DNA of 37,440 bases from Hyphomicrobiales bacterium. GTDB lineage: Bacteria; Pseudomonadota; Alphaproteobacteria; Rhizobiales; Rhizobiaceae. Shown here piece by piece: positions 1 to 33,096 of this stretch. Position 1 is the stretch's first letter, and each line of letters opens with the position of its first letter. The position numbers and the translations under genes are program-made. Below the pieces are notes generated by a model that ran no database searches, was not told where the DNA came from, and saw only the letters and a list, made by a program, of their open reading frames with translations. Location of the stretch: the NCBI GenBank assembly GCA_011087605.1, contig JAALLE010000036.1, positions 1 to 37,440 of the forward strand, written 5' to 3'.

Positions 1-223
1 CGTCTGATGGGCCGTCTATAAAAGCATCAGGTTGGGGTAGCTGGGTAGTTACTGATTTTTAAACTTCGCTAACCTTGTTTATGGGTCGAAAGACGCCCCC
101 GTCGCGGGCTTCCATTCTGATGTCGCAAACGGAGTGGTGATCAGGTGGTCGCAACGGAGTATTGTCCATCAAACGGGAACGGACTTGGCCGGTTTCCCTG
201 ACTTTCTTGAAGGAAAGAACTCG

Positions 224-7482: not shown

Positions 7483-9528
7483 CTATGCTCTGCGGCGTCC
7501 ACCCCGACGACGTCTGGGTGAGCCGGTATCATCAGCGCCGACCAGTGCAGCGGACCGGCGCGCCGGCAACTTGATCTCAGCCTCCAGTCGCGGGAATTGA
7601 TCCACCTTGTTGGGAAACGCCATCGCGTTGACGAAATGCTCCTGGAACTTTGGCTCCAGGGCGGTTTCGATTTTTTCGATATTCTGCACCGTATCTTCAA
7701 TTTCTCGCCGATGTTCCCGGTTCAGCAGAGCCATACGGGCTCCGGTTCCTGCCGCATTTCCAACCGCCCGCACATTGGCGATTTCACAATCCGGCACCAG
7801 TCCCAGAACAAGCGCATATTTCGGATCGATAAAGGTGCCGAATGCGCCGGCGAGATGAATTTTGGCAACCGTCTGCGCGCCGTGTTTTTCCATCAACAAT
7901 TTGACGCCGGCATAGAGTGCCGCCTTGGCCATCTGGATGGCCCGCACATCGGTTTGCGCGACAGTGATATTGGGACCATTGTCGGTTTCCCAAAGCCGGT
8001 AGCTGAAGGTGCGTTTGTCTTCGAAAATGCGGTCAGAATTGGCGGCTTTGGATCCATCGAGAACCCCGTCTTCATCGATGATGCCGGCCAGAAACATTTC
8101 GGCCATCACTTCGATAATGCCGGACCCGCAAATGCCGGTCACGCCGGTGGCTTTCGCCAGTTCGGCAAATCCGGGTTCATCAGACCACATGTCGACACCG
8201 ATAATACGGATACGCGGTTCCAGTGTTTCCGGATCAATCCTGACCCGTTCTATCGCGCCGGGCGCGGCGCGTTGGCCGCAGGAAATTTCTGCGCCTTCAA
8301 AAGCCGGGCCGGTGGGCGAAGAACAGGCCAGGGTGCGCCCCTGCTGACCAAGTACAATTTCAGCGTTGGTTCCCACATCGACCAACAGCGACAGGTCGAT
8401 TTCCTTGTGGGGAGCTTCCGACAAAGTTGCCGCGGCAGCATCAGCACCAACATGCCCGGCAATGCACGGCAACATGTAAACGCGGGTGCCGTCATTCATG
8501 TGCAGGTCAAGCTCGGTTGCCCATGTATGAACGGCACCGGATACCGCAAGAGCAAACGGTGCCCCACCAAGTTCGGTCGGGTCGATGCCGAGAAACAGGT
8601 GATGCATGATCGGATTGCCGACAAATACACTGTCGAGAATATCGGTGGGATCAATTCCGGCTTCGGCGCAGACATTCTGGATCAGGCCATTGATCGCATC
8701 GCGAACCGCCTTGGACATGGCGCCGCGACCGTCGGGATTCATCATCACATAGGAGACCCGGCTCATGACGTCTTCGCCAAATCTGATCTGCGGATTTGAG
8801 GTGCCGGAGGAGGCCAGAGTTCGGCCCGACAAGAGCGACGAAAGATGCATCGCGATGGTTGTCGAGCCAATATCACAGGCAATGCCATAGGCTTCGTTTT
8901 TCAACCCGGGATAAAGCGCAATCAATGTCGGGCGCGAGGATTCGAGATCCTGATGGATGGCCGCCGTGACCGACCATTTGCCATCGCGCAGCACTTTTTG
9001 AACAATCGGCAAAATATGTTGCGATACCAGAATATCGCTATAACCCCATTCGCGTTCGAGCACGGCCTTTAGCCGGTCGAGATCACCCAGGGGCTTATGC
9101 ATGTCAGGCTCGTCTACTTCGACAAAACACATCTGGATTGCAGGGTTGCGTTCAATCAGCCGGGTATCGACAGCCTTGCGGATGGTTTGCTGGTTGACCA
9201 CCGTGTCGGCCGGGATGTCGACGACTAGCGGGCCCTGAATGGTTGCCGAACAGGACAGTCGGCGTCCGTCAATAAGTTCGCCTCGTTTGTCGGTGTAACG
9301 AATTTCCTTGGCAGACCATTGGGAAACGGAATCGGGTGCTGATTCAATGCCGTGTTTGGCGAAATGGCCGAATTCCGGAGCCACCTGGCAGCGCCCGCAA
9401 ATGCCCCGGCCACCACAAACCGATTCCACATAGACGCCAAGATCGCGCGCCGCATCCAGTATCGGCGTGCCAACTGGAAAATTCCCGCGCTTGCCGCTGG
9501 GGGTGAAGATGACGAGAGGATCAGACAT
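7483..9528 (-). CDS. Corrinoid protein reductive activator (ASKHA, RACo-like) with N-terminal 2Fe-2S domain
   Basis: A 681-residue protein. Residues 1-100 are a plant-type 2Fe-2S ferredoxin (Cys38, Cys44, Cys47, Cys93). Residues about 215-620 form the actin-like ASKHA/DUF4445 region, with GIACDIGSTTIAMHL as phosphate loop and LLVDVGTNAEI plus GICGSGIIE further on. This matches RACo of acetogens and related activators, which use ATP to return inactive Co(II) corrinoid to Co(I). Methanogen RamA instead carries two C-terminal 4Fe-4S clusters, which are absent here. The chain ends in a basic tail (SPRRRRGGRRRA) resembling tails on other proteins of this island. It lies 65 bases downstream of the methyl-H4folate methyltransferase gene on the same strand and is probably cotranscribed with it. 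Confidence 0.9.
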   Translation of the reverse strand: MSDPLVIFTPSGKRGNFPVGTPILDAARDLGVYVESVCGGRGICGRCQVAPEFGHFAKHGIESAPDSVSQWSAKEIRYTDKRGELIDGRRLSCSATIQGPLVVDIPADTVVNQQTIRKAVDTRLIERNPAIQMCFVEVDEPDMHKPLGDLDRLKAVLEREWGYSDILVSQHILPIVQKVLRDGKWSVTAAIHQDLESSRPTLIALYPGLKNEAYGIACDIGSTTIAMHLSSLLSGRTLASSGTSNPQIRFGEDVMSRVSYVMMNPDGRGAMSKAVRDAINGLIQNVCAEAGIDPTDILDSVFVGNPIMHHLFLGIDPTELGGAPFALAVSGAVHTWATELDLHMNDGTRVYMLPCIAGHVGADAAAATLSEAPHKEIDLSLLVDVGTNAEIVLGQQGRTLACSSPTGPAFEGAEISCGQRAAPGAIERVRIDPETLEPRIRIIGVDMWSDEPGFAELAKATGVTGICGSGIIEVMAEMFLAGIIDEDGVLDGSKAANSDRIFEDKRTFSYRLWETDNGPNITVAQTDVRAIQMAKAALYAGVKLLMEKHGAQTVAKIHLAGAFGTFIDPKYALVLGLVPDCEIANVRAVGNAAGTGARMALLNREHRREIEDTVQNIEKIETALEPKFQEHFVNAMAFPNKVDQFPRLEAEIKLPARRSAALVGADDTGSPRRRRGGRRRA

Positions 9529-9593
9529 GTTGGCGCACTCTTAAGCAACAGCAATCAATTGACAAACAATATCTGATTCCCAATCGATTTGCC

Positions 9594-10559
9594 TCAGCCT
9601 GTCCGCGCTGCGCGGCCGCCGCGGCGACGTCCTGCACCGGATGGGGTAGGGGTGCCACCCTGATTGCCTGCCATGGTTGCGGGGAATGTTCCCTGAACGG
9701 CGACACGGTCCTTATAGTTTCTGATCCATTCCATGCAGTCCTGGTCGACACCGGCCAGGACGTTGGCTGCATGAACCATTTCCATCTCCTGGGGGCGGCA
9801 GGGATTCATGATCGCGCTGGTCATGCCGGAAGCGATGCACATGGGAATAAAGGCGGCATTGATGCCATGGCGGTGAGGCAGGCCGAATGAGATGTTGGAC
9901 AGACCACAAGTCGTGTTGACGCCGAGTTCCTCGCGCAGGCGACGTACCAGTGCAAATACCTGTTTGCCGGCTGTGCCCATGGCGCCAATCGGCATGACCA
10001 GCGGATCGACCACAATATCATGGGCAGGAATGCCATAATCTGCGGCGTGTTCGACAATCTTCTTGGCGACCTCAAAACGCACGTCGGGATCTTCTGAGAT
10101 ACCGGTCTCGTCGTTGGAAATGGCAACAACCGGAACATCGTATTTTTTGACCAGCGGCAATATGGCTTCCAGCTTTTCAGTTTCGCCAGTCACGGAATTG
10201 ACCAGCGGGCGCCCCTTGGCGACTTTAAGGCCGGCTTCAATGGCGGCTGTGACCGATGAATCGATGGAGAGGGGAATGTCGACAAGTTCCTGAACCATTT
10301 CCAGGGTCTGGACCAGCAGAGCTGGTTCGGTAGCGTTAGGATCGACCGATGTCACGCCGGCATTAATGTCCAGCATGGTCGCGCCAGCGGCAACCTGAGC
10401 CAGGGCATCCGCCTTGACCGTATCAAAATTGCCGGCCTGCATTTCAGCAGCAAGCTTTTTGCGCCCGGTGGGGTTGATGCGCTCTCCAATAACGCAGAAT
10501 TTCTGATCAAAGCCGATTACGACTTCCTTGCTTGCTGATGCAACGATTGTCTGTGTCAC
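9594..10559 (-). CDS. Methyltetrahydrofolate:corrinoid methyltransferase (pterin-binding, MtgA/AcsE-like)
   Basis: A 321-residue TIM-barrel pterin-binding enzyme related to AcsE/MeTr, MtgA and CmuB. GERINPTGRKK at residues 25-35 and LDINAG are the folate-binding signatures, and CGLSNISFGLP is the family's late-barrel motif. Expected role: moving a methyl group between a methyl-corrinoid protein and tetrahydrofolate. The start is GTG at 10559 with GGAG 8 bases upstream. The last ~15 residues (SGAGRRRGGRAARTG) are a basic extension beyond the barrel. It is divergent from metF, and the shared intergenic region contains a SahR-like palindrome. In glycine betaine or chloromethane pathways this step feeds the methyl group to H4folate, and the gene set here suggests that direction. 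Confidence 0.9.
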   Translation of the reverse strand: MTQTIVASASKEVVIGFDQKFCVIGERINPTGRKKLAAEMQAGNFDTVKADALAQVAAGATMLDINAGVTSVDPNATEPALLVQTLEMVQELVDIPLSIDSSVTAAIEAGLKVAKGRPLVNSVTGETEKLEAILPLVKKYDVPVVAISNDETGISEDPDVRFEVAKKIVEHAADYGIPAHDIVVDPLVMPIGAMGTAGKQVFALVRRLREELGVNTTCGLSNISFGLPHRHGINAAFIPMCIASGMTSAIMNPCRPQEMEMVHAANVLAGVDQDCMEWIRNYKDRVAVQGTFPATMAGNQGGTPTPSGAGRRRGGRAARTG

Positions 10560-10878
10560 GTCACTGTCTCCAATTGGATTGCCGGTCTCTTTGCGGTTGG
10601 GTCGTTATACACACTTTGCCGCAGCCGGTATTTTGTTGCGGCAACTATCATCGTCTTTTGAACCGCGAGGCAGTGCCAAATGCGACACCAAACGGCTCAT
10701 TTCTAGACGTCAGCGAAATGTTTTTTCATCACTGGATTTATAAACATAAAGAAATCTTTATATCAACCTTGCGCATATCGATTTTTTAATGTAATTTCAC
10801 TTTACGACATTGGTTGTCGCAAACAAGCCAAGTCTGTATGATTGTAATTTCACCTCGTGTTTTCCGTAGGAACATCCC
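10560..10878. other. Divergent regulatory region between the methyl-H4folate methyltransferase gene and metF
   Basis: A 319-base non-coding stretch, notably AT-rich between 10720 and 10860. It contains one clear element, the palindrome at 10744-10763 described separately, and must hold the promoters of both divergent genes. A GTAGGAAC ribosome site lies just before metF. I see no other gene or structured RNA. Confidence 0.6.
10744..10763. promoter_or_regulatory. SahR-like operator palindrome upstream of metF
   Basis: ACATAAAG-N4-CTTTATAT, 8-base arms with one mismatch and a 4-base spacer. A second copy with the same 20-base geometry and perfect arms lies upstream of the BHMT-like gene at 18368-18387. 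From memory this resembles the alphaproteobacterial operators of SahR, the S-adenosylhomocysteine-responsive ArsR-family repressor of methionine-cycle genes. The repressor itself is not encoded in this window. Confidence 0.6.
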
Positions 10879-11760
10879 ATGTCTCCAGCAAAAATCTTCG
10901 ACCAACCCGTTGTTAGTGTAGAATATTTTCCACCCAAGGGACTTTCGGCCGAACGATCACTGATGACCGGGGCTCACGCCCTGCGGCGATTCGAGCCTGC
11001 TTACCAGACCGTGACGTTTGGTGCAGGTGGTTCGGCAATTGAGGGAAGTTTTGACTGGTCTGTCAGCCTGCAAAACCTCAACGAAGTGCCAACTGCGACG
11101 CATATTGCGTTGTGCCACTTTAACCGAGAGAGCCTGTTTGAGTTCGCGGAGAATCTGTGGGAGCAGGGAATTCACCGTCTGGTGGTTCTCAGGGGCGACG
11201 CAGGAGGTCAACTGGCCGGATTTGACAGCGTTGCAGACGCCATTGCCGGGTTGAAAAAGCTGCACCCCTTTGATGTATCGGTTGCGGCTTATCCCGAAGT
11301 TCATCCGCTGGCTGAATCACGCGACGTCGATATTGCCAATCTGATCGCCAAACAGGATGCCGGGGCCAACCGGGCAATCACTCAGTATTTCTTCAACAAT
11401 GAAGATTTCTATCGTTTTCGCGACGAAGCGGAGAAAAAGGGCTTTCGCCGCGATATCGTTCCAGGCGTAATTCCAATCACCAATTTTGAACGCATTATCG
11501 AATTTTCGGCCAAATGCGGTGCCAGCATTCCCGATCATTTTCATCCGCTGTTTGAAGCGGCAGGTGATGATCGCGCCAAGCACACCGACGTTGCCCGCAA
11601 GCTGATTGAAGAACAGGTGCGGGATCTGGCCCAGAACGGCGTCCTGGCGCTGCATATTTACACGCTTAACAGGGTTGACCTGACCGCCGACGCGATCAGG
11701 GCGTTCAACGGTGAATTCGATACGAACGTCGCTGCATTCCGCCCAGCTCTCGTCGGGTAA
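10879..11760 (+). CDS. metF: Methylenetetrahydrofolate reductase
   Basis: A 293-residue TIM-barrel flavoprotein of normal MetF length. VEYFPPKG near residue 14 carries the conserved catalytic glutamate (E28 in E. coli). The strand-2 motif TVTFGAGGS and the later RGDAGG motif are also typical. It interconverts methylene-H4folate and methyl-H4folate. It has its own promoter region with a SahR-like operator, as expected for a biosynthetic methionine-cycle MetF. A second, more divergent MetF-like gene lies convergent to it, so one of the two may work in the oxidative direction on methyl groups coming off the corrinoid protein. Confidence 0.92.
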   Translation: MSPAKIFDQPVVSVEYFPPKGLSAERSLMTGAHALRRFEPAYQTVTFGAGGSAIEGSFDWSVSLQNLNEVPTATHIALCHFNRESLFEFAENLWEQGIHRLVVLRGDAGGQLAGFDSVADAIAGLKKLHPFDVSVAAYPEVHPLAESRDVDIANLIAKQDAGANRAITQYFFNNEDFYRFRDEAEKKGFRRDIVPGVIPITNFERIIEFSAKCGASIPDHFHPLFEAAGDDRAKHTDVARKLIEEQVRDLAQNGVLALHIYTLNRVDLTADAIRAFNGEFDTNVAAFRPALVG

Positions 11761-11784
11761 TCGGGTTGCCCAAGCCGTAATTGA

Positions 11785-12651
11785 TTAGGCCAGAACCGCT
11801 GACTGGCCTTCATTGGAAAACTGGAAACTGCCCCGATCGGTCAACCAGTCGGCAGATGCCTGAAGCCCGCCAAATGGAAAGACGTGAAGTTGGGCAATGT
11901 TGCCAACCTGCTCCCGCCAGGCCTGTTCAATCGGGTTGACGACGTCCTCAGGTGAATGTTTTGTGGCCAGCTGAGCAATGGCGCTGGTGCGTTTCTTAAA
12001 GAAATTCAAAGAGTTGCCAACTCCGCACATGGCCGCATATTTAATCAGCGTGGTAATCTTTGCTGGCCCTGCGACACCGAGATGAATCGGCGCATCGATC
12101 CCGGCTTGTTTGACCGAGCGTGCCCAATCAACAAATTTCGGGCCATCAAAGCCAAATTGTGTTGCGATGCGAAACTCGGCATCGCTCTGCAGTCCAAAAT
12201 CAATCTTGTCTTTCAAAACCTGCATAACGTCGCGACCGCCATAGGCAACATTGCCTTCCGGGTGCCCGCCAATCGCCACGTGTTTGATGCCCAATTTGTC
12301 AATCAGACCGGTTTGCAACACTGCGAGAGCTTCAGAATAGGGGCCCATTTGCTCGTCTGCTTCGCCAGCAATAATAAGAATATCGCGGACGCCGGCATCG
12401 TTTGCCATGCCTGACAGACGGGCTTCCAGTGCCGCTTCGCTTTCGATGCGTCGAGCCGGAATATGGGGCACAGCCTGATAGCCAAGATCAGTCACTTTGC
12501 GGGCAGCAGCAATCAGTTCGGCAACCGGATCAACACCGACATCGGTAATGTAGACACGCGTTCCCGTGGGCAGCATGTCGCCATGCAACTTGCCGTCATG
12601 GACATGTTTTGCGCTGACCTCGATTGAGGCGCCGACTTTTGCTGCGGTCAT
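11785..12651 (-). CDS. Divergent MetF-family methylenetetrahydrofolate reductase (candidate catabolic enzyme)
   Basis: A 288-residue protein of the MetF fold. ASIEVSAK near residues 8-15 replaces the usual EFFPPK but keeps the glutamate. TRVYITDVG, AVPHIPARRI and ILIIAGEAD follow the order of MetF strands 2-4. It starts inside the end of the small PF13769-like gene (ATGA overlap), so the two are translationally coupled. By analogy with MetF2 of the aerobic chloromethane pathway, it may oxidise methyl-H4folate made by the corrinoid methyltransferase. That direction is inferred. The gene has no SahR-like operator, unlike the other metF. Confidence 0.8.
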   Translation of the reverse strand: MTAAKVGASIEVSAKHVHDGKLHGDMLPTGTRVYITDVGVDPVAELIAAARKVTDLGYQAVPHIPARRIESEAALEARLSGMANDAGVRDILIIAGEADEQMGPYSEALAVLQTGLIDKLGIKHVAIGGHPEGNVAYGGRDVMQVLKDKIDFGLQSDAEFRIATQFGFDGPKFVDWARSVKQAGIDAPIHLGVAGPAKITTLIKYAAMCGVGNSLNFFKKRTSAIAQLATKHSPEDVVNPIEQAWREQVGNIAQLHVFPFGGLQASADWLTDRGSFQFSNEGQSAVLA

Positions 12652-12950
12652 GCTTCGCGACCTCCATTTTTGACAAGGGCCACCAATCTGGCCTTGTCAT
12701 ATTCACCTTCAATGGCATCCATTGCCAGTTGAGCTTCGGCTTCCAGATCATCACCAACCGGCACCGGGTCACCGCGCCGCCATTCGGCCAGATAATCGTC
12801 CGTCTCGGCAGCCCCGGTGCGCATGGCGGCCATGTCTATGGCTTCGGTAAAGCGCAATGACAGTTCGCGCTTGGCCTGATTGCGACGTCCGGCCTTGACC
12901 ATAATCTGGGCCGGAATGTCCCGCCAGTAAACGATTTGAAGTTGTGCCAT
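12648..12950 (-). CDS. Small PF13769-like ('virulence factor') protein coupled to the MetF-like gene
   Basis: A 100-residue protein beginning MAQLQIVYWRDIPAQ and containing GRRNQAKRELS and a FTEAIDMAAMRTG segment. This is the pattern of the small domain family labelled Virulence_fact (PF13769). That name is historical and no biochemical function is established to my knowledge. The start at 12950 (GGAAAG upstream) is preferred over an extended start because the family begins at this strand. Its stop overlaps the start of the MetF-like gene, so the two are made together. A role as partner subunit or assembly factor of that reductase is a reasonable guess, no more. Confidence 0.75.
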   Translation of the reverse strand: MAQLQIVYWRDIPAQIMVKAGRRNQAKRELSLRFTEAIDMAAMRTGAAETDDYLAEWRRGDPVPVGDDLEAEAQLAMDAIEGEYDKARLVALVKNGGREA

Positions 12951-13225
12951 TGCAAGCTTTCCATGTTTTCGGTGGCCAAAATGCGCTTTTGTGTCTCTCA
13001 ATCCTTATGTAAGGGCGACGGAGGACAACTTCAAATACGACTCCGACAGCCCATTTTTGAAGTTTTGGTCCAACTTATCGACTATCATGGACGCGCTTGT
13101 AGCACCAATCATAATCCTTGATGCAATGACGTCGTCACCACTCATATGCAGCATTGATATCGCAATTGCGACACCTATGCCAAAATTATGAATGACCAAT
13201 ATCGGTGACACCTTCCGGTGATGTC
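12951..13225. other. 275-base gap between the DUF1638 gene and the PF13769-like gene
   Basis: Both flanking genes are on the minus strand but are unusually far apart for this cluster. Short open frames exist (for example 13005-13229 on the minus strand) but lack a ribosome site and familiar sequence. The stretch may hold a promoter for the PF13769-like/MetF-like pair. I see no clear element. Confidence 0.4.
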
Positions 13226-13858
13226 TCAAGATTGTTGCGGGATGTCCGCAAGCGCATTGGAGAGATCACCATATCCGGTCAGGCGCTTTTCGAATTCCAG
13301 GCCAAGAAATTCAGCAGCCTGTCTAGCATTTTCCGTCAATTGCTCATCTTCGGTCTGGGCAATGTAGATCATGCGTGTGTAATTACCAAAATACATCTCG
13401 CGCAGTTCCGGGTGACGGTCCATGCCCAGCGGCTTGACCAAAAAGGTCTCGAAATGGCGGGCCAGAAAATCCGTCATGAAAAAGCTGGTCAGCAGGTCAT
13501 CGCCTTCCTCTTCAAAGGTTTGGTTGCCCATATAGAATGAAAAACAATGCGGTCCGGCAATCCGCTCGACGCCGTGCTTGTCGCAGACCATGTCCAGATG
13601 CCCGCCTGTGCCACAATCGGCATAGGCAACGAAAATCTGTTCAAACCCTTCCGCCCTGGCGCTGTTGATGGCCGCATCGACGCCCGGGGCGATTTTATCG
13701 GGATAATGGTGCCACATGGCGGGCAGGCATTTTAGATCAATATTGGTGAGACCCAGTTGTTCGCTCACCGCAAGAATTTCACGGGCAATCATGCCACACC
13801 CTATGACTCGCACAGGGGCGGGCTCCGGTGCATCGACAGATTTGCCAATTTGATTCAT
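13226..13858 (-). CDS. DUF1638 protein
   Basis: A 210-residue protein carrying the whole DUF1638 (PF07796) pattern. It has IGCGMIAREI near the N-terminus, KCLPAMWHHYPDKI, then AYADCGTGGHLD, GPHCFSFYMG and DFLARHFE, and ends with HPELREMYFGNYTRMIYIAQ. The spaced cysteines and histidines look like a metal or cofactor site. The family is known from methanogens and anaerobes near corrinoid methyltransferase genes. Its molecular role is not established as far as I know. Here it sits just past the terminator of the corrinoid-protein gene, so it probably has its own promoter. A part in corrinoid handling or methyl transfer is inferred from position alone. Confidence 0.85.
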   Translation of the reverse strand: MNQIGKSVDAPEPAPVRVIGCGMIAREILAVSEQLGLTNIDLKCLPAMWHHYPDKIAPGVDAAINSARAEGFEQIFVAYADCGTGGHLDMVCDKHGVERIAGPHCFSFYMGNQTFEEEGDDLLTSFFMTDFLARHFETFLVKPLGMDRHPELREMYFGNYTRMIYIAQTEDEQLTENARQAAEFLGLEFEKRLTGYGDLSNALADIPQQS

Positions 13859-13892
13859 ACAAATACCCTAACACCCTAATTCAGAAACAAAA

Positions 13893-13912
13893 AAGGCGTC
13901 CGAAGACGCCTT
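13893..13912 (-). terminator. Intrinsic terminator of the corrinoid protein gene (UUCG tetraloop)
   Basis: Read on the minus strand: AAGGCGTC-TTCG-GACGCCTT followed by a run of T. The stem is a perfect 8 base pairs closed by a stable C(UUCG)G tetraloop. It lies 30 bases beyond the stop of the corrinoid protein gene and before the DUF1638 start, so it separates the two transcripts. Confidence 0.88.
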
Positions 13913-13942
13913 GATATTGCAGTCAGTTCAGGCGGCCCGGCG

Positions 13943-14644
13943 TCAGGCGCTTGCCCGCTGATTATGTTTGCGCGTCATGTAGTCCTTGGCGGTTTCCACG
14001 GCCACTGCCGCATCGCGACAATAGGCGTCGGCGCCGATTGCTTCACCAAATTCATCATTCAGCGGTGCACCACCGACCAGCACCGTATAATCGTCGCGAA
14101 TGCCCTTTTCCTTCATCGTGTCGATGACAACTTTCATGTAAGGCATGGTGGTCGTCAGCAGGGCAGACATGCCAACAATATCGGGCTCATGCTCGTCTAT
14201 AGCGTCCAGATAATTTTCGACAGGGTTGTTGATGCCCAGATCAATGACGTCGAACCCGGCGCCTTCCATCATCATGCCGACCAGGTTTTTGCCGATATCG
14301 TGAATGTCACCTTTCACCGTGCCAATCACCATCTTACCCTGTTTGGGCGCGCCGGTAGCAGCAAGCAGCGGGCGCAATATGGCCATGCCGCCCTTCATCG
14401 CATTGGCTGACAGCAGAACTTCAGGCACAAACAGGATGCCGTCGCGAAAATCCTCACCAACAATGCGCATGCCTTCAACCAGCGCCTCGGTCAGAACCTT
14501 GTAGGGGGCCCAATCCCGGCTCAACAGGATATTGGTGCCTTCTTCAATCTCTTCCTTCAGACCATCATACAGATCGTCATGCATTTGCAGAACGAGCTCT
14601 TCTGTCGGCAATTCGGAGAGGATGATTTCTTCTTCGTCAGACAT
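13943..14644 (-). CDS. Methyltransferase corrinoid protein (MtgC/MttC-like, B12-binding)
   Basis: A 233-residue cobalamin-carrying protein. Residues about 15-95 are the helical cap (B12-binding 2). The Rossmann-like domain follows with GDIHDIG at 112-118, where His115 is the lower cobalt ligand. Further conserved stretches are SALLTTTM and VGGAPLN, which hold the nucleotide tail. It accepts the methyl group from an MttB-family protein and passes it to the folate enzyme. I prefer the second ATG, at 14644, because AGGG lies 9 bases before it. The ATG at 14650 would be too close. It is divergent from the mttB-like gene at 14967 and is the only corrinoid protein in the window, although two MttB-like proteins are encoded. 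Confidence 0.92.
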   Translation of the reverse strand: MSDEEEIILSELPTEELVLQMHDDLYDGLKEEIEEGTNILLSRDWAPYKVLTEALVEGMRIVGEDFRDGILFVPEVLLSANAMKGGMAILRPLLAATGAPKQGKMVIGTVKGDIHDIGKNLVGMMMEGAGFDVIDLGINNPVENYLDAIDEHEPDIVGMSALLTTTMPYMKVVIDTMKEKGIRDDYTVLVGGAPLNDEFGEAIGADAYCRDAAVAVETAKDYMTRKHNQRASA

Positions 14645-14966
14645 GTGCATAAACCCTGTGCGAAACGTCCCATTCAGTTGGTGATTATGTCTTGCTTAAT
14701 ATGTTCAACGCTTCCTATAGCGACTTAGCCCGACACGATTGCGACCTGTTTGGTTCATAACATCTTGCTTTCCCGGTCCAAAGGCAAATTTTTCCAAAAA
14801 TGGCGTCTTCTTTGCGACCGCCGTCTTGATTGCGCCAACAGGTGCCGCACGGGGAAAGTTGTCGGCGCTGCGCATGGGGGAATAGTGGGCCAGATAATCA
14901 ATTTTGACATGGTGCAATTGTTCAAAATGCGCCATGCTAGACAGTCACTGACCGGGATGACAGATC
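14645..14966. other. Divergent regulatory region between the corrinoid protein gene and the first mttB-like gene
   Basis: About 320 bases without a supported gene, serving two divergent transcripts that need each other's product. Near the mttB side it holds a TTGACA (14904-14909) and an imperfect inverted repeat, TGGTGCA at 14910-14916 and TGCGCCA at 14928-14934. No convincing -10 box is visible. Confidence 0.45.
14910..14934 (+). promoter_or_regulatory. Possible operator in front of the first mttB-like gene
   Basis: TGGTGCA-N11-TGCGCCA, 7-base arms with one mismatch, lies directly after a TTGACA and about 32 bases before the ATG. The placement suits a regulator acting at the promoter. No second copy was noticed elsewhere in the window, so support is weak. 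Confidence 0.25.
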
Positions 14967-16514
14967 ATGAGTGAAGCCAGAGCTGCAAGACGCGGACGCG
15001 GTGGTGGTGGTGCAGCGGCCCGCCGGGCGGAACGTACCAGCGGCGTTACCGAGCACTTGCCCTATATCCGCCGAAAAATCGCGACTTTCGATATTCTCAA
15101 CGACGAAGCGATGGAAATTATCGAATCCAATGCCGATACGGTGCTGGAAGAGATCGGTATTGAGTTCCGCGATGATGCCGAAGCGCTGGCGATGCTGAAA
15201 GAGGCCGGTGCCGACGTTCAGGGCGAACGGGTGCATTTTCCAAAAGGCCTGTGTCGCGACCTGATGAAGACGGCACCGCGGGAATTTACCCAGCACGCCC
15301 GCAATCCCGAACGCAATGTGGTGATCGGGGGCAACAACACCGTATTTGCACCGGTTTATGGTCCGCCATTCGTTCTCGATCTGGAGGGTGAGCGTCGCTA
15401 TGCGACGATGGAGGACTTCCGAAATTTTGTGAAAATGGCCTATATGGCCCCCGCCATGCATCACAGTGGCGGAACCGTATGTGAGCCGGTCGATGTTGCC
15501 GTCAACAAGCGCCATCTGGACATGGTCCACGCCCATATGACTCTGTCGGACAAGCCATATATGGGGTCAGTGACCGCACCGGAGAGGGCTGCCGACACGG
15601 TGGAAATGTCGAAAATCCTGTTTGGCGAAGAGTTTGTCGACAATAATTGCGTCGTCACATCGCTGATCAACATCAATTCACCAATGGTCATGGATGACAC
15701 CATGCTTGGCGCGCTGAAAGTCTATGCGCGGGCCGGGCAGGCGACGATAATCTCGCCCTTCATCGTCGGCGGGGCAATGTCGCCGGTCACCGTTGCTGGA
15801 ACATTGACCCAGGTTCTCGCCGAAGCACAGGCTGCAATTGCCTTTTCGCAGCTATGCCGCCCCGGCGCTCCGGTGATCATGGGGACATTTGCGACTTCAA
15901 TTTCAATGCAGTCCGGGGCACCGGCCTTTGGTACGCCGGAACCGGCTCAGGTACTTTATGGAGCGGCGCAATTTGCTCGCAAGTTTGGCCTGCCTTTCCG
16001 CTCTGGTGGATCGCTGACGGGCTCAAAAATGCCCGATGCGCAGGCCGCATATGAAAGCGCAAATACGCTTAATCCCACCCTGTTGGGTGGTGTCAATTTC
16101 GCATTGCATTCAGCAGGTTGGTTAGAGGGCGGCCTGGTCAGTTCGTACGAAAAATTCGTCATGGATTGCGACCAGCTGGCAGCCCAGCAGAAAATGGCGG
16201 CTGGTGTCGATGTCAGCGAACACGGGCAGGCAATGGATGCTATTCGAGAAGTCGGTCCGGGCAGCCATTATCTGGGCTGTGACCATACCCAGGCGAACTT
16301 CAAAACTGCTTTTTTCCGCTCGACAATTGCCGACAACAACTCATTTGAACAGTGGGAAGTTGAAGGCGCCAAGACCGCGCCACAGCGGGCCAATGAGATT
16401 GCCCGCAAATGGATCAGTGATCACAACGCCCCGGATCTCGACCCGGCCAAACGCGAGGCGCTGGATGCCTATGTCGCCAATAAAAAGGATTCCATGCCCG
16501 ACGCCTTCACCTGA
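14967..16514 (+). CDS. MttB-superfamily corrinoid methyltransferase, non-pyrrolysine (copy 1)
   Basis: A 515-residue member of the trimethylamine methyltransferase (MttB) superfamily. The reading frame has no in-frame amber codon, so it belongs to the non-pyrrolysine branch, which includes the glycine betaine methyltransferase MtgB and the proline betaine and carnitine enzymes MtpB and MtcB. Family features seen are EEIGIEF near residue 55, HSAGWLEGGL around 378-387 and GPGSHYLGCDHTQ near 430. Expected role: transfer of a methyl group from a quaternary amine (or similar) to the divergently encoded corrinoid protein. Residues 1-26 form a tail rich in Arg, Gly and Ala (ARAARRGRGGGGAAARRAER) that precedes the barrel. 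GGGATGA lies shortly before the ATG. The substrate is not determined by sequence, but the glycine-producing neighbours favour glycine betaine. Confidence 0.9.
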   Translation: MSEARAARRGRGGGGAAARRAERTSGVTEHLPYIRRKIATFDILNDEAMEIIESNADTVLEEIGIEFRDDAEALAMLKEAGADVQGERVHFPKGLCRDLMKTAPREFTQHARNPERNVVIGGNNTVFAPVYGPPFVLDLEGERRYATMEDFRNFVKMAYMAPAMHHSGGTVCEPVDVAVNKRHLDMVHAHMTLSDKPYMGSVTAPERAADTVEMSKILFGEEFVDNNCVVTSLININSPMVMDDTMLGALKVYARAGQATIISPFIVGGAMSPVTVAGTLTQVLAEAQAAIAFSQLCRPGAPVIMGTFATSISMQSGAPAFGTPEPAQVLYGAAQFARKFGLPFRSGGSLTGSKMPDAQAAYESANTLNPTLLGGVNFALHSAGWLEGGLVSSYEKFVMDCDQLAAQQKMAAGVDVSEHGQAMDAIREVGPGSHYLGCDHTQANFKTAFFRSTIADNNSFEQWEVEGAKTAPQRANEIARKWISDHNAPDLDPAKREALDAYVANKKDSMPDAFT

Positions 16515-16635
16515 ACACGCGAGGTCAGGGCGCCAAATTGTCGGGAAGTGAGAAGCCGGGAATTCATTGCCGACTTCATCCAGCAGGAAGTCTGGCGTTC
16601 GGCTATCAAGGGGTGAGTGCTGGCGGAGCGGTGTG

Positions 16636-17295
16636 ATGAACAATGACGCAGCATTGAAGCTTGAAGATGATATTCGGGAAATTCTGTTGCCCAGTGGCCT
16701 GTTGCCGCTTGGATGGTTTGAAATTGATGGCCAGTCCGCCTTGTTGATCGGTAACGTTGGCAGCAGCCAGTGGCAGGCATTTTCTGGGTCGGAACAATTT
16801 GCCGATGATGAAGCTGATCCGATGAACCGTTGGACAGTTTCGGTTATTTCAGCAATGGCTGAAAAGCTGCGACCCGAATTGGTGGAGCATATCAGATATC
16901 CGTTTGGCGACCCCAACTGGCCATTTCAGGAATATGCCAAGCAGGCATTGGGGATCGATCAGTCGCCAATCGGCCTGTTGATTCACCCCGAATATGGATT
17001 GTGGACAGCGTTTCGCGCGGTTGTGATTTTCGCCGACAAATTTGATCTGCAGGAAGCCCAAATCCCCGATCATCCATGTGACACATGCTCAGACAGACCC
17101 TGTTTGAATACCTGCCCGATCGCGGCATTCACTATCGACGGATATGATTATCTTGCCTGCAAATCTCATGTTGCAGGCGAACAGGGCAGGGCCTGTCGCG
17201 AGGGTGGCTGTCTGGCGCGACTGGCCTGCCCGGTGGGCAGCCAATATCGCTATCAAAAGCCGCATCAGGCTTTTCACATGAAGGCCTATATCTGA
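16636..17295 (+). CDS. CblC/MMACHC-like domain fused to a 4Fe-4S ferredoxin domain
   Basis: A 219-residue protein in two parts. Residues 1-140 resemble human MMACHC (CblC), a flavin-dependent cobalamin-processing protein. LEDDIREILLPSGLLPLGWF near the start and IHPEYGLWTAFRAVVIF at 116-132 line up with MMACHC's N-terminal helix and its HPRFGGWFAIRGVVLL segment, as I remember that sequence. Residues 148-198 carry eight cysteines (148, 151, 156, 160 and 175, 187, 192, 198), the first four in ferredoxin order C-x2-C-x4-C-x3-CP. One or two 4Fe-4S clusters are likely. The ATG at 16636 has GGAG 7 bases before it. It lies 121 bases after the mttB-like gene on the same strand. A job in reducing or repairing the corrinoid cofactor is inferred. 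A QueG-like relative is the main alternative. Confidence 0.75.
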   Translation: MNNDAALKLEDDIREILLPSGLLPLGWFEIDGQSALLIGNVGSSQWQAFSGSEQFADDEADPMNRWTVSVISAMAEKLRPELVEHIRYPFGDPNWPFQEYAKQALGIDQSPIGLLIHPEYGLWTAFRAVVIFADKFDLQEAQIPDHPCDTCSDRPCLNTCPIAAFTIDGYDYLACKSHVAGEQGRACREGGCLARLACPVGSQYRYQKPHQAFHMKAYI

Positions 17296-17309
17296 CGATT
17301 GTCAGGGCT

Positions 17310-18344
17310 TTAGCGGCGTCTTCCCCTGCGGCGCCCACTGCGCGCACCGTCATCATTCTCCGATTTTGCCGCTGCGATCTGATTGACCAATTCACCGGTA
17401 GCCGCAACGACTGCTTCCAGAGCCGGGCGTTGGCCTTTGGTATGGGCGTCGATGGCCTGCCGCATGGCGACAAGATGTTCTGCAGATGTGCCGCAACAAC
17501 CACCGATGATCTTGGCGCCGGAATCGATTGCCAGCTGCGCATATTTTGCCATCAATTCTGGGGTGCCGGTATACAGAACCTGATCACCACTAACCCGCGG
17601 GACGCCACAATTTGCCTTGGCAATTACCGCAATCGTGCCGCCTTCCGCTGTCGGGCCGGATTCAGTCATATCGAGCACAGAGAACAAAAGGTCGGTTGCC
17701 CCAACCCCGCAATTGGCTCCAATTGCGGTGGGTGGGGTCGGCAGATCATTGGCCAGTTGGCCAAGCTCGGAAGGGGCGATGCCCATCATTGTCCGGCCTG
17801 CCGTATCAAAACTGGCAGTAAATATGAATTCCAAGCCAACAGCATTGGCAGCCTCGGCTGCTGCCGCGATTTCTTCGCGTGCCGACATGGTTTCGATCCA
17901 CAACACGTCAGCACCGCCCTGTTTGAGCCCCTCCATCTGTTCGGTGAAGGAGGAAACGGCGTCCTCATGGGTGAGTTCGCCAAGCGGCACGAACAATTCC
18001 CCGGTCGGACCGACGGACCCGGCTACCAAAACAGTTTTGGAAGCCGCATCTGCGACCTCGCGGGCAAGTCTGGCGGCTTTTTTATTCAGTTCACGCGAAC
18101 GGTCCTGGGCATTGTGCAGTTTCAGGCGGTGCCGATTGCCGCCAAATGTATTGGTCAATATAATATCGGACCCTGAATCGACAAAGCTTTGATGTAATGC
18201 CTTGACCTTTTCGGGGGCATCCTCATTCCACAATTCCGGCGCATCACCTGAAAGCAGGCCCATATTGAAGAAATTCGTGCCGGTTGCACCGTCTGCAAGC
18301 AGGACGCCTTTTTCTTCGATCAAGGATTTTAGTTTTCCAGCCAT
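17310..18344 (-). CDS. bmt: Betaine-homocysteine/homocysteine S-methyltransferase family protein (BHMT-like)
   Basis: A 344-residue zinc-dependent barrel of the homocysteine methyltransferase family. ADGATGTNFF at residues 17-26 is the typical first strand. The zinc ligands are Cys212 (GANCGVG) and Cys283-Cys284 (IGGCCGT). The domain fills about residues 5-315, and the chain ends in a basic tail, GARSGRRRGRRR. Known reaction of the family: methyl transfer from betaine, S-methylmethionine or a cobalamin/folate donor to homocysteine, giving methionine. Alphaproteobacterial versions are often called Bmt. AGGAG lies 10 bases before the ATG, and a perfect SahR-like palindrome lies 24-43 bases upstream of the start. 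Donor choice is unclear: it could act on betaine or as a stand-alone module with the corrinoid protein. Confidence 0.85.
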   Translation of the reverse strand: MAGKLKSLIEEKGVLLADGATGTNFFNMGLLSGDAPELWNEDAPEKVKALHQSFVDSGSDIILTNTFGGNRHRLKLHNAQDRSRELNKKAARLAREVADAASKTVLVAGSVGPTGELFVPLGELTHEDAVSSFTEQMEGLKQGGADVLWIETMSAREEIAAAAEAANAVGLEFIFTASFDTAGRTMMGIAPSELGQLANDLPTPPTAIGANCGVGATDLLFSVLDMTESGPTAEGGTIAVIAKANCGVPRVSGDQVLYTGTPELMAKYAQLAIDSGAKIIGGCCGTSAEHLVAMRQAIDAHTKGQRPALEAVVAATGELVNQIAAAKSENDDGARSGRRRGRRR

Positions 18345-18387: not shown

Positions 18388-18488
18388 GAGTTCTCTTAAC
18401 ACGGCAACAATTGCATAGGTTTGCAAAATATTTCTTGCGCGGCGCAGAATTTAGGAGGAATGTGCGATCACGCGAATGTGAGATTGAG

Positions 18489-19409
18489 ATGACTGCTGGG
18501 ATGACGAAGAAGTGGGAATGGGCAACCCTGGGGCTGATGGCGGCCTGTTATGGATTGTGGATTGCCGGCGGCCTGTTGTGGCAGACATCCTGGTGGTTTG
18601 CCGGCCTGATTATGATGCCTTATCTGGCGGCGTTTCATACCTCACTGCAACATGAAGTGATCCATGACCATCCAACCCCTTCAAGATGGCTCAATGAACT
18701 GCTGATCAGCCTGCCAATTGGCGCGGTATTTCCCTATCGGCGCTATCGTGATTTGCATTTGAAACATCACAATGACCTGAACCTGACGGATCCGTACGAA
18801 GATCCGGAAAGCTATTTTTGGCCGCTATGTCAGTATACGGCCATGCGCCCGATCATGCGGCAACTGTTTAAGATCAACAATACGCTGGTCGGGCGATTGG
18901 TGGTTGGACCCTTGTTGACGCTGTATGGCTTTACCCGCACGGAAGTGAGACGTTTGACTGCCGGTGAGCCGGGAGTTCGGGTGGCCTGGCTATTGCATGT
19001 GGCGGGCATGATTGTGCTTGGGATCATCATTGTAAAACTGTTTGCCATGCCGCTTTGGGTCTATGCTGTGTTTGTAGCTTATCCCGCCCTGTCGCTAACA
19101 TCCTTGCGTTCCTATGCGGAACATCAGGCGGCGGAAAATGTCGGCGCCCGGTCGGCCATAGTTGAGGCCCATCCGGTATTTGCTCTGCTGTTTTTAAACA
19201 ACAACCTGCACATTGTGCATCATGCGAACCCAGGCGTTGCGTGGTATGATTTACCGGCTTTGTACCGGGAGCGGCGTGAACTATTTCTGGCGGCCAACGA
19301 ACACACTTTGTTTCACGGGTATGGCGACATTATTCGGCGGTTTGCTTTTCGCACCAAACAACCGGTCGATCATCCGTTCATGTATCGCGACGAAGTAACC
19401 CCCGAGTGA
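18489..19409 (+). CDS. Membrane fatty acid desaturase family protein (copy 1)
   Basis: A 306-residue membrane protein with the three histidine boxes of the non-haem di-iron desaturase/hydroxylase fold: HEVIHDH at 55-61, HLKHH at 90-94 and HIVHH at 241-245. Hydrophobic spans near 12-50, 65-85 and 165-205 fit four membrane helices. The start is uncertain. ATG at 18489 is chosen, but a GTG at 18462 lies just 3 bases after a strong AGGAGG, and further in-frame starts exist. It overlaps the next gene by four bases (GTGA). The substrate may be a lipid acyl chain or a smaller molecule, since hydroxylases and carotenoid enzymes share the fold. Confidence 0.78.
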   Translation: MTAGMTKKWEWATLGLMAACYGLWIAGGLLWQTSWWFAGLIMMPYLAAFHTSLQHEVIHDHPTPSRWLNELLISLPIGAVFPYRRYRDLHLKHHNDLNLTDPYEDPESYFWPLCQYTAMRPIMRQLFKINNTLVGRLVVGPLLTLYGFTRTEVRRLTAGEPGVRVAWLLHVAGMIVLGIIIVKLFAMPLWVYAVFVAYPALSLTSLRSYAEHQAAENVGARSAIVEAHPVFALLFLNNNLHIVHHANPGVAWYDLPALYRERRELFLAANEHTLFHGYGDIIRRFAFRTKQPVDHPFMYRDEVTPE

Positions 19410-20158
19410 TCGCTTCTCTGCCCATGTATGATTGGCCGGAACTGCGCGCCGATACCGATGCGCTGTGGCAGATGTTACGCAAAAACTTTTCGCAAGCCGG
19501 ATTTCAACCACCTGACCATCTTTCGCGATTTGAAGACGAGAGCGAGGGTTGGCTGGAGGCCAGTTTGTTTTTCAGCCAGACCTGCGGCTATCCGTATATG
19601 TCCCGTCTGGAAGGGCAGGTGGAACTACTCGGCACACCCCATTTCGATATCGATGGCTGGCAGGGATCGAATTACAGCAGCGCGATTGTGGTTCGAAAAG
19701 AATCCAAAGCGGCCAGTCTGGATGACTGTCGCCCGAATCGGTTTGCCTTTAACAGCAACAACTCGCTATCGGGATATCGATGCATGACGCCACTGGTTGG
19801 CCGGCCGGAAGACTGGTTTGATGAACTGGTCAAAAGTGGCGGGCATCGGGTTTCCGCAACAATGGTGGCAGATGGGCGGGCAGATATTGCTGCCATTGAT
19901 GCCATGTGTTGGCATTTGTTTGCGACCTATCAATCCGAGCAGGCTGCTCAACTGAAGGTTTTGCAGTGGACACCGCCATTGCCGGGCCTGCCTTATATTA
20001 CCAACCGGTACTGGTCAGCCGATGAACTACAGAGGCTGAAATCGACATTGGCCAGCGCCATTTCAGAAATGTCGACAGCTCCGCAAAATGAGATCTTTCG
20101 ACTGAACGGCGTGTCGCATCTGGAAACAGAGGCGTATAAATCGATTATATTACTTTAG
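19406..20158 (+). CDS. PhnD/SsuA-like periplasmic-binding-fold protein without signal peptide
   Basis: A 250-residue protein with the type 2 periplasmic binding fold of PhnD-like proteins. Recognisable stretches are MIASLPMYDWPE at the start, SNYSSAIVVRKES, then FAFNSNNSLSGY and GRADIAAIDAMCW, which is the usual order of the ligand-binding lobes. It begins directly with the first strand and has no signal peptide or lipobox, so it appears cytoplasmic. The GTG at 19406 overlaps the desaturase stop (TGA at 19407-19409), and the first residues belong to the fold, so I prefer it to the ATG at 19424. It may be a cytoplasmic sensor or an enzyme of this fold. No transporter partner genes are adjacent. 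Confidence 0.72.
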   Translation: MIASLPMYDWPELRADTDALWQMLRKNFSQAGFQPPDHLSRFEDESEGWLEASLFFSQTCGYPYMSRLEGQVELLGTPHFDIDGWQGSNYSSAIVVRKESKAASLDDCRPNRFAFNSNNSLSGYRCMTPLVGRPEDWFDELVKSGGHRVSATMVADGRADIAAIDAMCWHLFATYQSEQAAQLKVLQWTPPLPGLPYITNRYWSADELQRLKSTLASAISEMSTAPQNEIFRLNGVSHLETEAYKSIILL

Positions 20159-22138: not shown

Positions 22139-23209
22139 TTGAAACAAACCCCTTTTTATCAAACGCATATTGATGCTGGTGCCAAGATGGGTGCCTTTGC
22201 CGGTTTCGACATGCCGCTGTTTTATCCGCTTGGCGTGATGAAGGAACATGAACATACCCGCCAGAATGCCGGCCTGTTCGATATTTCCCATATGGTTCAC
22301 GTGTCCATATCTGGCGCTGAAGCTGCCGCGCTGATCAGCGCCCTGTGCCCCTATCATGCCGATCAACAGGGGGAAGGCCAGGCGAGATATACATTTATGC
22401 TGACCGAAGACGCGGGCATCATCGATGACCTGATCGTCACGCGACTGGCCGAAAAGCGCTATTTGATCGTCGCCAATGCGGGATGTGCCGAAAAGGATGT
22501 GGCGCACATTCAAGCTGTTGCGAGCAAGTTTGACGCGGCTGTTGAAATCATCCCAAGAGCTTTTGTGGCGCTACAGGGGCCAGCGGCAGAAGCCGTTCTG
22601 GCAGCTCATTTCAGCGTCGGCGACATGGATTTCATGACCGCCAAAGAACCAACCGACGGATGGTTCATATCGCGCACTGGGTATACCGGTGAAGACGGTT
22701 TTGAAATTGCCATCCCGGAAGCCGACGGTGTTGCGTTTGCTGAAAAACTGACATCCGATGAGCGGGTTGAATGGATTGGCCTGGGTGCCCGTGACTCGCT
22801 TCGCCTGGAAGCCGGGTTGCCGCTTTATGGTCAGGATCTGAGTGAGGACATTTCACCTCACGAAGCCGGATTGCTTTGGGCCATTCCCAAGGACTTGCGC
22901 GATGGCGGAAGTTTTAACGGGGCTGATGCCCTGGCCGAAAAAATTGCCGCAGGAAGATCACGGATGCGAGTTGGACTGTTGCCACAAGGGCGTCCGGTAC
23001 GCGGTGAAGCTGTGCTGGTTGACGAATCCGGAAGTGAAATTGGCATCGTTACATCAGGTGGATTTGGGCCAAGCCTCAAGGCCCCGATGGCTATGGGTTT
23101 GGTGTCAGTCGACGCTGCCGATGCCCCGATATTTGCCGATATGCGCGGCAAGAAAATTCCCATGTTGAGGGTCAAACCGCCCTTCGTACCCCATAATTAT
23201 AAACGCTAA
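22139..23209 (+). CDS. gcvT: Glycine cleavage system aminomethyltransferase (T protein)
   Basis: A 356-residue T protein of normal length. GAKMGAFAGFDMPLFYP near the start, FDISHMVHV, then SRTGYTGEDGFEI and LEAGLPLYGQDL near residue 230 are standard T-protein motifs for the folate site. It transfers the aminomethyl carbon from lipoylated H protein to tetrahydrofolate and releases ammonia. Translation starts at TTG 22139 with GGAG 6 bases before it. The nearby ATG at 22123 is out of frame. First gene of gcvTHP, controlled by the tandem glycine riboswitch. GcvH follows after 12 bases. Confidence 0.95.
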   Translation: MKQTPFYQTHIDAGAKMGAFAGFDMPLFYPLGVMKEHEHTRQNAGLFDISHMVHVSISGAEAAALISALCPYHADQQGEGQARYTFMLTEDAGIIDDLIVTRLAEKRYLIVANAGCAEKDVAHIQAVASKFDAAVEIIPRAFVALQGPAAEAVLAAHFSVGDMDFMTAKEPTDGWFISRTGYTGEDGFEIAIPEADGVAFAEKLTSDERVEWIGLGARDSLRLEAGLPLYGQDLSEDISPHEAGLLWAIPKDLRDGGSFNGADALAEKIAAGRSRMRVGLLPQGRPVRGEAVLVDESGSEIGIVTSGGFGPSLKAPMAMGLVSVDAADAPIFADMRGKKIPMLRVKPPFVPHNYKR

Positions 23210-23221
23210 GGAGAAGCACCG

Positions 23222-23590
23222 ATGAGCAAGACATATTATACCGACGAACATGAATGGCTGAGCGTTGAAGGTGACGTGGCTACAGTTGGCATTACCGACC
23301 ACGCGCAGGAACAACTGGGCGACCTGGTGTTCGTTGACCTGCCCGATATTGGTACCGAGCTGGAGCAGGGTGATGACGGTATTGTCGTTGAATCCGTGAA
23401 AGCAGCCTCCGACGTTTATGCTCCGGTTTCGGGCACGGTGGTTGAGGTCAATGAAAAACTCAATGACGATGCTGCGCTGGTCAATGCCGGAGCCGAAGGT
23501 GACGGCTGGCTCTACAAGCTGAAGCTGAATGACGCCAGCCAGTTGGACGATCTGCTTGATGCCGATGGCTACAAGGCTCTGATTTCCTGA
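23222..23590 (+). CDS. gcvH: Glycine cleavage system H protein
   Basis: A 122-residue lipoyl carrier. [21 protein letters not shown] opens the domain, and Lys60 in VESVKAASD is the lipoylated lysine. It shuttles the aminomethyl group between P, T and L proteins. AAGGAG lies directly before the ATG. The L protein (lipoamide dehydrogenase) is not in this window and is presumably shared with other complexes elsewhere. Confidence 0.96.
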
Positions 23591-23622
23591 CCCCAGTTTC
23601 AATTGTCTGAAAGACCCGCAAT

Positions 23623-26433
<2,811 letters not shown>

Positions 26434-27613: not shown

Positions 27614-27652
27614 GATTCCAGGTCGGTTACGCGGGTTTGTTGTTGAGTCCCA

Positions 27653-28435: not shown

Positions 28436-28467
28436 TTCACTTCTCCTTGAATTGAAGACGCGAGGCT

Positions 28468-31292: not shown

Positions 31293-31294
31293 GG

Positions 31295-32890: not shown

Positions 32891-32898
32891 CAATATAT

Positions 32899-32904
32899 CC
32901 TCCT
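32899..32904 (-). promoter_or_regulatory. Ribosome binding site that fixes the start of the second mttB-like gene
   Basis: AGGAGG on the minus strand, 8 bases before the ATG at 32890. A perfect Shine-Dalgarno at ideal spacing, so the in-frame ATG 87 bases upstream is unlikely to be used. Confidence 0.8.
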
Positions 32905-33096
32905 GCAAGGCGCGGACTTGCCCGACCATTGTGGGTTTCCGGTACCGCAACAGTGACGGATGCACGACGCCAGCCAACAGGAAAGCGACATGCTGTGTGT
33001 TGGTTTAGAAAAAACGACTCGTTAAGCCGTGTGAAGGATTGAAATCCACAGGGCTCGCCGCCAAAGTCGCGCCACTTGAATCGGGTAACCATCAAC

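Follow-up and report, generated by a model that had tools for sequence, protein, structure and literature searches.

A probable MtgBCDE-type cobalamin methyltransferase island with arginine-rich enzyme tails and a PF13769 protein in a Rhizobiaceae genome

An island of genes for corrinoid methyl transfer and its reactivation

The window analysed here is the whole stretch of 37,440 nucleotides at positions 1 to 37,440 of contig JAALLE010000036.1 (assembly GCA_011087605.1), from a Hyphomicrobiales bacterium of the Rhizobiaceae, and positions 7483-18344 of it carry an 11-kb island of genes for corrinoid-dependent methyl transfer. The host draft genome has 4.19 Mb in 177 contigs (97.9% complete, 0.06% contamination), the closest named match of its RamA protein was a 96% identical protein of a Rhizobiaceae metagenome-assembled genome, and its lineage points to an aerobic life. 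The genes of the island and the features within them are, in order:

7483-9528, minus strand: RamA/RACo-type ASKHA corrinoid activator, RamA (PF14574 304.8, PF17651 165.5 and PF17650 79.6 bits)
7486-7530, minus strand: arginine-rich C-terminal tail of RamA (translation)
9594-10559, minus strand: MtgD, methyl-tetrahydrofolate (H4folate):corrinoid methyltransferase (PF00809 105.4 bits; NF005719 398.9 bits, cut-off 259)
9597-9638, minus strand: arginine/glycine-rich C-terminal tail of MtgD (translation)
10879-11760, plus strand: MetF2-type methylenetetrahydrofolate reductase (MTHFR; PF02219 203.2 bits)
11785-12651, minus strand: divergent second MTHFR-like protein (PF02219 27.4 bits, cut-off 24)
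12648-12953, minus strand: small protein (<120 codons) of PF13769, "virulence factor" (80.2 bits, cut-off 25)
13226-13858, minus strand: DUF1638 protein (PF07796 96.8 bits)
13943-14650, minus strand: MtgC corrinoid protein (PF02310 94.1, PF02607 62 bits)
14516-14650, minus strand: acidic N-terminus of MtgC, first 45 residues (charge count)
14967-16514, plus strand: MttB-superfamily methyltransferase, MtgB candidate (PF06253 760.6 bits)
14967-15044, plus strand: arginine/glycine-rich N-terminal tag of MttB (translation)
16567-17295, plus strand: CblC-like/ferredoxin-like protein (MMACHC, PF16690, 20.7 bits, under the cut-off of 27)
17310-18344, minus strand: MtgE, BHMT-like homocysteine S-methyltransferase module (PF02574 205.3 bits; NF005718 508.4 bits, cut-off 338)
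17313-17348, minus strand: arginine-rich C-terminal tail of MtgE (translation)

A preliminary description of this DNA had recognised a corrinoid methyl-transfer island here, and all the genes that it listed lie in this interval, with nearly every call upheld by Pfam or NCBIfam models. The two enzymes that it called MetF-type both match PF02219 above the cut-off, and the second begins before the PF13769 gene has ended, the two sharing positions 12648-12651. MttB is amber-free as described, being a single open frame of 515 amino acids without an in-frame stop (non-pyrrolysine), and its homologues in the Protein Data Bank (PDB) are 4yyc, 2qne and 9yce. The gene that had been called a CblC-like ferredoxin is present, but its CblC likeness stays under the cut-off and is the weakest gene call of the island; the product is 36.6% identical to the Sinorhizobium meliloti "ferredoxin" adjoining MttB, and a PDB sequence search gave no credible match for it, for PF13769 or for DUF1638. 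A cysteine motif resembling that of 2Fe-2S proteins was seen by eye at the RamA N-terminus, where the Pfam Fer2 model was not reached. For the BHMT-like gene the best interpretation is the homocysteine module, MtgE, and by Pfam both reactivation proteins, RamA and DUF1638, are encoded in the island.

The same neighbours recur around RamA in other genomes, so the grouping is not due to chance. Among 81 sequences, namely the window and 80 loci out of 585 confirmed candidates, each with at most 10 kb on either side, RamA was found in 81, MtgD and PF13769 in 78 each, DUF1638 and MtgC in 74 each, MttB in 70, the CblC-like ferredoxin in 45, the second MTHFR in 24, MtgE in 22 and MetF2 in nine. Of 36 fetched loci, some truncated at contig ends, 16 hold MtgC, DUF1638, PF13769, MtgD and RamA as a group, and both genomes from outside the class are among these 16. 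In an even sample of 144 alphaproteobacterial genomes, PF14574 was present in 34; in the 31 of these that were searched further (leaving out the host itself and two fragments, G006 and G062), MtgD was found as a strong match in 28 and MttB in 29.

On pSymB of S. meliloti Ak57, a stretch of about 18 kb contains Bmt, ferredoxin, MttB, MtgC, DUF1638, PF13769, MtgD and RamA, and from bmt to the ASKHA gene the proteins are 57-84% identical to those of the window (RamA 71%, MttB 73%, MtgD 83%, MtgC 84%), with the exception of the ferredoxin (37%) and the MTHFRs. In S. meliloti, Azoarcus and Paracoccus the place of the window's second MTHFR is taken by a pair formed by an MTHFR and a PF12225 (MTHFR-C-terminal) protein. 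The second MTHFR is unlike the S. meliloti pair, and blastp gave no match between it and the S. meliloti MTHFR at 1e-3. An archaeal relative was observed on a Halomicrococcus plasmid (locus L361:397-12870), where genes for a corrinoid protein, a RamA-like protein, DUF1638 and an MtrH-like protein lie beside FAD oxidoreductases, without tails and without an annotated PF13769 protein.

The chloromethane route, which the preliminary description took as the aerobic precedent, transfers methyl groups aerobically through a corrinoid to H4folate by CmuAB together with MetF2, and CmuA is a fused methyltransferase-corrinoid protein. In the window, by contrast, the methyltransferase and the corrinoid protein are encoded on separate genes, the rest of the genome not having been searched for CmuA. 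MtgABC of Desulfitobacterium hafniense is similar in that an MttB-superfamily glycine betaine methyltransferase works with a corrinoid protein, but it belongs to an anaerobe, and 2qne and 9yce, which we take to be D. hafniense chains, are tag-free, the window's MttB aligning with them no earlier than from its residue 33 or 40.

As a precedent the chloromethane route has been outdated since Mausz et al. 2025 (PNAS, PMC12478193), and the gene set of the island is not a new kind of system: it is the known aerobic MtgBCDE system and ordinary for its clade. The passages of that paper on the system describe MtgB, MtgC, MtgD, MtgE, MetF2, RamA and DUF1638 in Ruegeria pomeroyi, where, according to proteomics and mtgC and mtgD mutants, the set serves both glycine betaine demethylation and methionine synthesis; they also report colocalised genes in S. 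meliloti, up to seven PF06253 genes per genome and a MetH that is usually absent. The window agrees with this in its MttB, MtgC, MtgD, MtgE, MetF2, RamA and DUF1638 genes, in the presumably aerobic setting, in the arrangement shared with S. meliloti and in a genome that likewise holds seven PF06253 genes. Aerobic B12-dependent betaine demethylation has had a genetic footing only since 2025, and high expression throughout the ocean has been reported for it. An earlier description, from Phaeobacter inhibens (Price et al. 2018, PMC5764234), is of a methionine synthase whose modules for B12 binding, pterin and homocysteine are separate and which is accompanied by RamA-like and DUF1638 proteins; the genes there, unlike those of the window, are scattered over several places.

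We consider it very likely that the island encodes a split cobalamin methyltransferase, MtgBCDE, with its support proteins. In such a system, MttB would demethylate a quaternary amine, with glycine betaine or a similar betaine as the probable substrate, and place the methyl group on the Co(I) corrinoid of MtgC. MtgD would pass this group from MtgC to H4folate, after which it would be oxidised by MetF2 and folate enzymes. In the reverse direction, MtgD would recharge MtgC from methyl-H4folate and MtgE would hand the methyl group to homocysteine, the same MtgC thereby also making methionine. Corrinoid that had slipped to Co(II) would be reduced again by RamA with DUF1638 and, as proposed below, PF13769.

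PF13769 and DUF1638 beside RamA

In the class sample, PF13769 was found in 31 of the 144 genomes, all of them among the 34 with PF14574, and in none of the 110 others. The PF14574 genomes without it were the two with a short-type RamA (G066, G107) and the fragment G062. In 24 of the 36 fetched loci PF13769 was present, mostly between DUF1638 and MtgD. On a plasmid of Terrarubrum flagellatum (L362:8695-10977), PF13769 is fused to the N-terminus of RamA in a frame of 760 residues (91.2 and 295.6 bits), which is annotated merely as "virulence factor". This co-occurrence with RamA, together with the fusion, leads us to propose that PF13769 acts with RamA in corrinoid reactivation and may be an unrecognised component of the system. 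Three observations count against such a role: the fusion was the sole case in the loci scanned, PF13769 also matches in the Bacillus subtilis control, and one Paracoccus methylovorus plasmid locus has no PF13769 copy nearby.

Predicted structures were obtained with pLDDT values of 95.1 for PF13769 and 93.8 for DUF1638. Foldseek searches of both models against the PDB returned nothing at E <= 0.001, and no function was drawn from them; the DUF1638 model is weakly similar to glutamate racemase 1b73 (TMq 0.50, E 0.069). In 41 aligned DUF1638 sequences, C21, C44, C82, C105, H50 and H104 are invariant, and these residues may form a metal or corrinoid ligand site. According to the passages of PMC5764234 on the synthase, the DUF1638 homologue is needed for methionine synthesis in P. 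inhibens, and mutant and fitness data reported for other species extend this requirement to MtgC, MtgD, the homocysteine module and the RamA-like protein.

PF13769 and the arginine-rich tails are the parts described here. The words "virulence", "arginine" and "tail" do not occur in the main text of Mausz et al., "virulence" occurs 0 times in that of PMC5764234, and the passages of the latter on the synthase are silent on tails. The open-access literature searched, mostly judged from listings, yielded no paper on PF13769 in this system and none on arginine-rich tails of these enzymes.

Arginine-rich tails and the acidic start of MtgC

Tails were counted in a set composed of the window, the 80 named loci, 36 stretches from other genomes, three plasmid loci and four stretches of the host's own genome, in which near-identical species may occur twice, named and other genomes not having been compared. 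A C-terminal tail was scored when 12 residues within the last 25 held at least five arginines and at most one hydrophobic residue, and background genes were picked by the GC content of their codon positions. Such tails were found on 116 of 118 RamA, 20 of 22 MtgE and 75 of 105 MtgD proteins; the other 30 MtgD end in a shorter tail of the RRGGRAAR type, and the two failing MtgE (36 and 50 bits) are distant homologues. No tail was found on MtgC (0/83), DUF1638 (0/96), PF13769 (0/84), the second MTHFR (0/35), DAO/GCV_T proteins (0/52) or the ferredoxin-like protein (0/38), and few on MetF2 (1/13) and other genes (4/880). The N-terminal tag of MttB was present in 80 of 82 sequences, among them the paralogues of the host genome (seven of seven tagged). 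For other genes, with N-termini taken from the first ATG, the count was 19 of 874; the choice of start is imprecise in this measure.

The tails are also found across the class and beyond it. At the loci of the class sample, 28 of 30 RamA, all 28 MtgD, 22 of 26 MtgE and all 30 MttB passed; the tail-free RamA are those of G013 (L128/L325) and G069 (L138/L338), and among the MtgE exceptions two lack a tail (L192, L194), one is weak (L195) and one is cut by a contig end (L193). A draw of 397 genomes from the phylum held PF14574 in 64, of which 55 had a system-type and nine a short RamA. Six of the 55 had been read earlier; of the other 49, the 45 that were read (all but G392, G263, G410 and G353) were tailed without exception. 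Among them are RamA of G219 and G483, two genomes that do not belong to the class and that also have tagged MttB (L304, L305), and RamA of G235, a genome with no PF06253 match. Of 30 further MttB loci 27 were tagged, and the three that failed the measure (L308, L318, L323) are nevertheless rich in arginine or lysine. On a plasmid of the betaproteobacterium Azoarcus, both MtgD and RamA are tailed.

Relatives outside the system were tail-free. None of the short RamA homologues had a tail (0/11; nine came from the phylum sample and two from the class sample), and their genomes had no MttB; by eye, the six named outgroups (Halomicrococcus, Acetoanaerobium, Vescimonas, Gemmatirosa, Subdoligranulum and Thiodictyon) had none either, nor did MetH, which has its own corrinoid domain (0/7, from eight loci of which L365 was dropped as a shadow frame). 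Among solved structures, 4yyc aligns from residue 7 of MttB and therefore carries the tag; 2qne, 9yce and the RACo chain 3zyy are without extensions, in constructs that may have been trimmed.

A genome scan with the RG motif MGNMGNMGNGGNGGNMGN was tried and rejected as a detector, with 15 matches against 19 and 16 for the reversed control and hence no excess. Its matches near the end of a frame longer than 140 residues were RamA and MtgD only, and because the MtgE and MttB tags were missed the motif cannot list all tagged proteins.

MtgC is the single common partner with which each of the four tailed enzymes has to make contact, and its first 45 residues have a median net charge of -13 (range -18 to -9 in 91 sequences). 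Among the conserved proteins it alone is strongly acidic at the N-terminus, the N-terminal medians of the others lying between -5 and +5. For the last 30 residues of MtgD, RamA and MtgE the median charge is +4. Alignments with the nearest corrinoid proteins of solved structure start at MtgC residue 17-28, and those with two others, 2i2x and 8g3h, at 12 and 11, so that a large part of the acidic stretch is specific to this group. With tails on the four partners of MtgC and an acidic start on MtgC itself, docking by charge is the simplest reading, and it suggests that the partners may bind through their arginine-rich tails to the MtgC N-terminus.

We put forward, tentatively, a charge code in which the acidic tail of MtgC would recruit the MttB paralogues, MtgD, MtgE and RamA by interchangeable tags, plugging many demethylases into one B12 carrier, with PF13769 as a reactivation subunit alongside RamA. 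Two observations tell against it. As whole proteins RamA (median net charge -13) and MttB (-12) are negative as well, so that MtgC (-19) is not the sole acidic protein. Moreover, in the class sample (n=19) the charge of the MtgC N-terminus does not follow the number of arginines in the tails (rho 0.00 with RamA and -0.10 with MtgD). The corresponding values for RamA and MtgD were -0.27 and -0.41 in 72 Rhizobiaceae-type sets and -0.15 and -0.38 in all 90 sets, where relatedness is a confounder, and the co-variation test does not support docking.

It is a real possibility that the tails instead bind RNA, membrane, polyphosphate or each other, forming a condensate, or that they are neutral remnants. 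RG-rich tails typically belong to proteins that bind nucleic acids or phase-separate, and the tails of this system vary in sequence and length, which together with the charge results fits such alternatives. Their distribution is harder to reconcile with them: the tails occur at different ends of four enzymes of unrelated folds that all meet MtgC, are missing from MtgC itself, DUF1638, PF13769, the second MTHFR and the DAO/GCV_T proteins, and are absent from the system-free RamA homologues, the outgroups and MetH, and neutral remnants would hardly have been kept across the class.

Methyl donor, methionine synthesis and the neighbouring genes

The remaining window holds further genes for methylated amines and glycine:

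134-2740, plus strand: DAO/GCV_T oxidase-demethylase (PF01266 238.9, PF01571 216.7 bits), from its domains presumably of the dimethylglycine/sarcosine type
22139-26433, plus strand: gcvTHP glycine cleavage genes (PF01571, PF01597, PF02347)
28468-30942, minus strand: second DAO/GCV_T oxidase-demethylase (PF01266 225.3, PF01571 192.1 bits)
31295-32977, minus strand: second MttB-superfamily protein (PF06253 720.7 bits; a start at 32890 is suggested by eye)
32780-32839, minus strand: arginine-rich N-terminal tag of the second MttB (tag measure)

At 26591-34245 the second MttB lies with a PhyH dioxygenase, a fatty-acid-desaturase-type protein, the DAO/GCV_T protein and an iron-type alcohol dehydrogenase (Fe-ADH), a cluster that possibly serves another methylated substrate. 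Next to MtgE, at 18411-20158, there are a desaturase-type gene and a gene for a phosphonate-type binding protein, and the same two kinds of gene flank the Terrarubrum operon. The highest number of PF06253 matches in the 31 class genomes searched was observed in G027, an alphaproteobacterial genome of 2.8 Mb, with 15 matches, some of them fragments.

That the window has no GbcAB was borne out, no Rieske gene having turned up among the window proteins scanned, and the genome-wide check agrees with it: of five PF00848 proteins, four score only 112, 146.8, 137 and 149.8 bits with the GbcA model NF058607 (cut-off 670), the fifth being an unscored 31-position match near a contig start. The further claim that betaine demethylation by the island feeds H4folate is in line with homology, with the R. 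pomeroyi mutants and with the DAO/GCV_T and GcvTHP genes nearby, but it missed the methionine-synthesis half of the system.

Glycine betaine is the substrate that we infer for the window's MttB. It is quite conceivable, if on the doubtful side, that this enzyme uses another methyl donor, such as stachydrine, carnitine, choline, dimethylsulfoniopropionate (DMSP) or a methylamine, given that the genome holds seven PF06253 paralogues and that members of the MttB superfamily differ in substrate, as stated in the relevant passages of PMC8604678 and illustrated by the Eubacterium enzymes listed in PMC12478193. For betaine speaks that the window's MttB is the paralogue beside the core operon, near the DAO/GCV_T oxidases and GcvTHP, and that its closeness to the S. 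meliloti MttB extends to the same gene arrangement.

With regard to methionine, the MetH activation domain PF02965 had no match in the draft genome, against matches in seven of 14 control genomes, in a search that did not cover MetH lacking this domain. The only frame matching PF01717 encodes a MetE-like protein of 391 residues, which stays far under the cut-offs of all seven methionine synthase models that it touched. The island is probably the main or only methionine synthase of the genome. That it would be a catabolic demethylase only, with a different enzyme as the source of methionine and a direct coupling of betaine to homocysteine by the BHMT-like protein, is improbable: P. inhibens Bmt does make methionine from betaine and DMSP in vitro (reported in PMC12366255), and the class genomes G033 and G141 combine RamA, MtgD and MttB with a long MetH-type frame (1242-1243 amino acids) and no close MtgE, but the host genome has neither a MetH activation domain match nor a MetE-grade protein, and PMC12478193 reports in the passages concerned that mutation of mtgC or mtgD makes R. 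pomeroyi auxotrophic for methionine and unable to grow on glycine betaine even with methionine, and that S. meliloti Bhmt is without the residues required for betaine binding.

Some points weigh against reading the island as a betaine-demethylating and methionine-forming MtgBCDE system. The activity of Bmt directly on betaine (PMC12366255) means that MtgE need not work through MtgC only. The betaine enzyme of this organism could be one of the six other PF06253 paralogues, the assignment to the window's MttB being by relatedness and position. The NCBIfam models for MtgC of anaerobes were not reached (NF047996 209.2 bits against 370, NF047995 179.3 against 310), and absences from a draft in 177 contigs are provisional.

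In an otherwise known system, it is the tails and PF13769 that deserve to be pursued. If the proposal is true, the tags and the acidic terminus would explain in a simple way how a single small corrinoid protein can work with up to seven or more demethylases as well as with a folate enzyme, a homocysteine enzyme and an activator. The tags would then be a signature by which further clients of the carrier could be recognised and would offer a way to engineer such modules into other bacteria, and PF13769, which databases label a virulence factor, would gain a role in metabolism.

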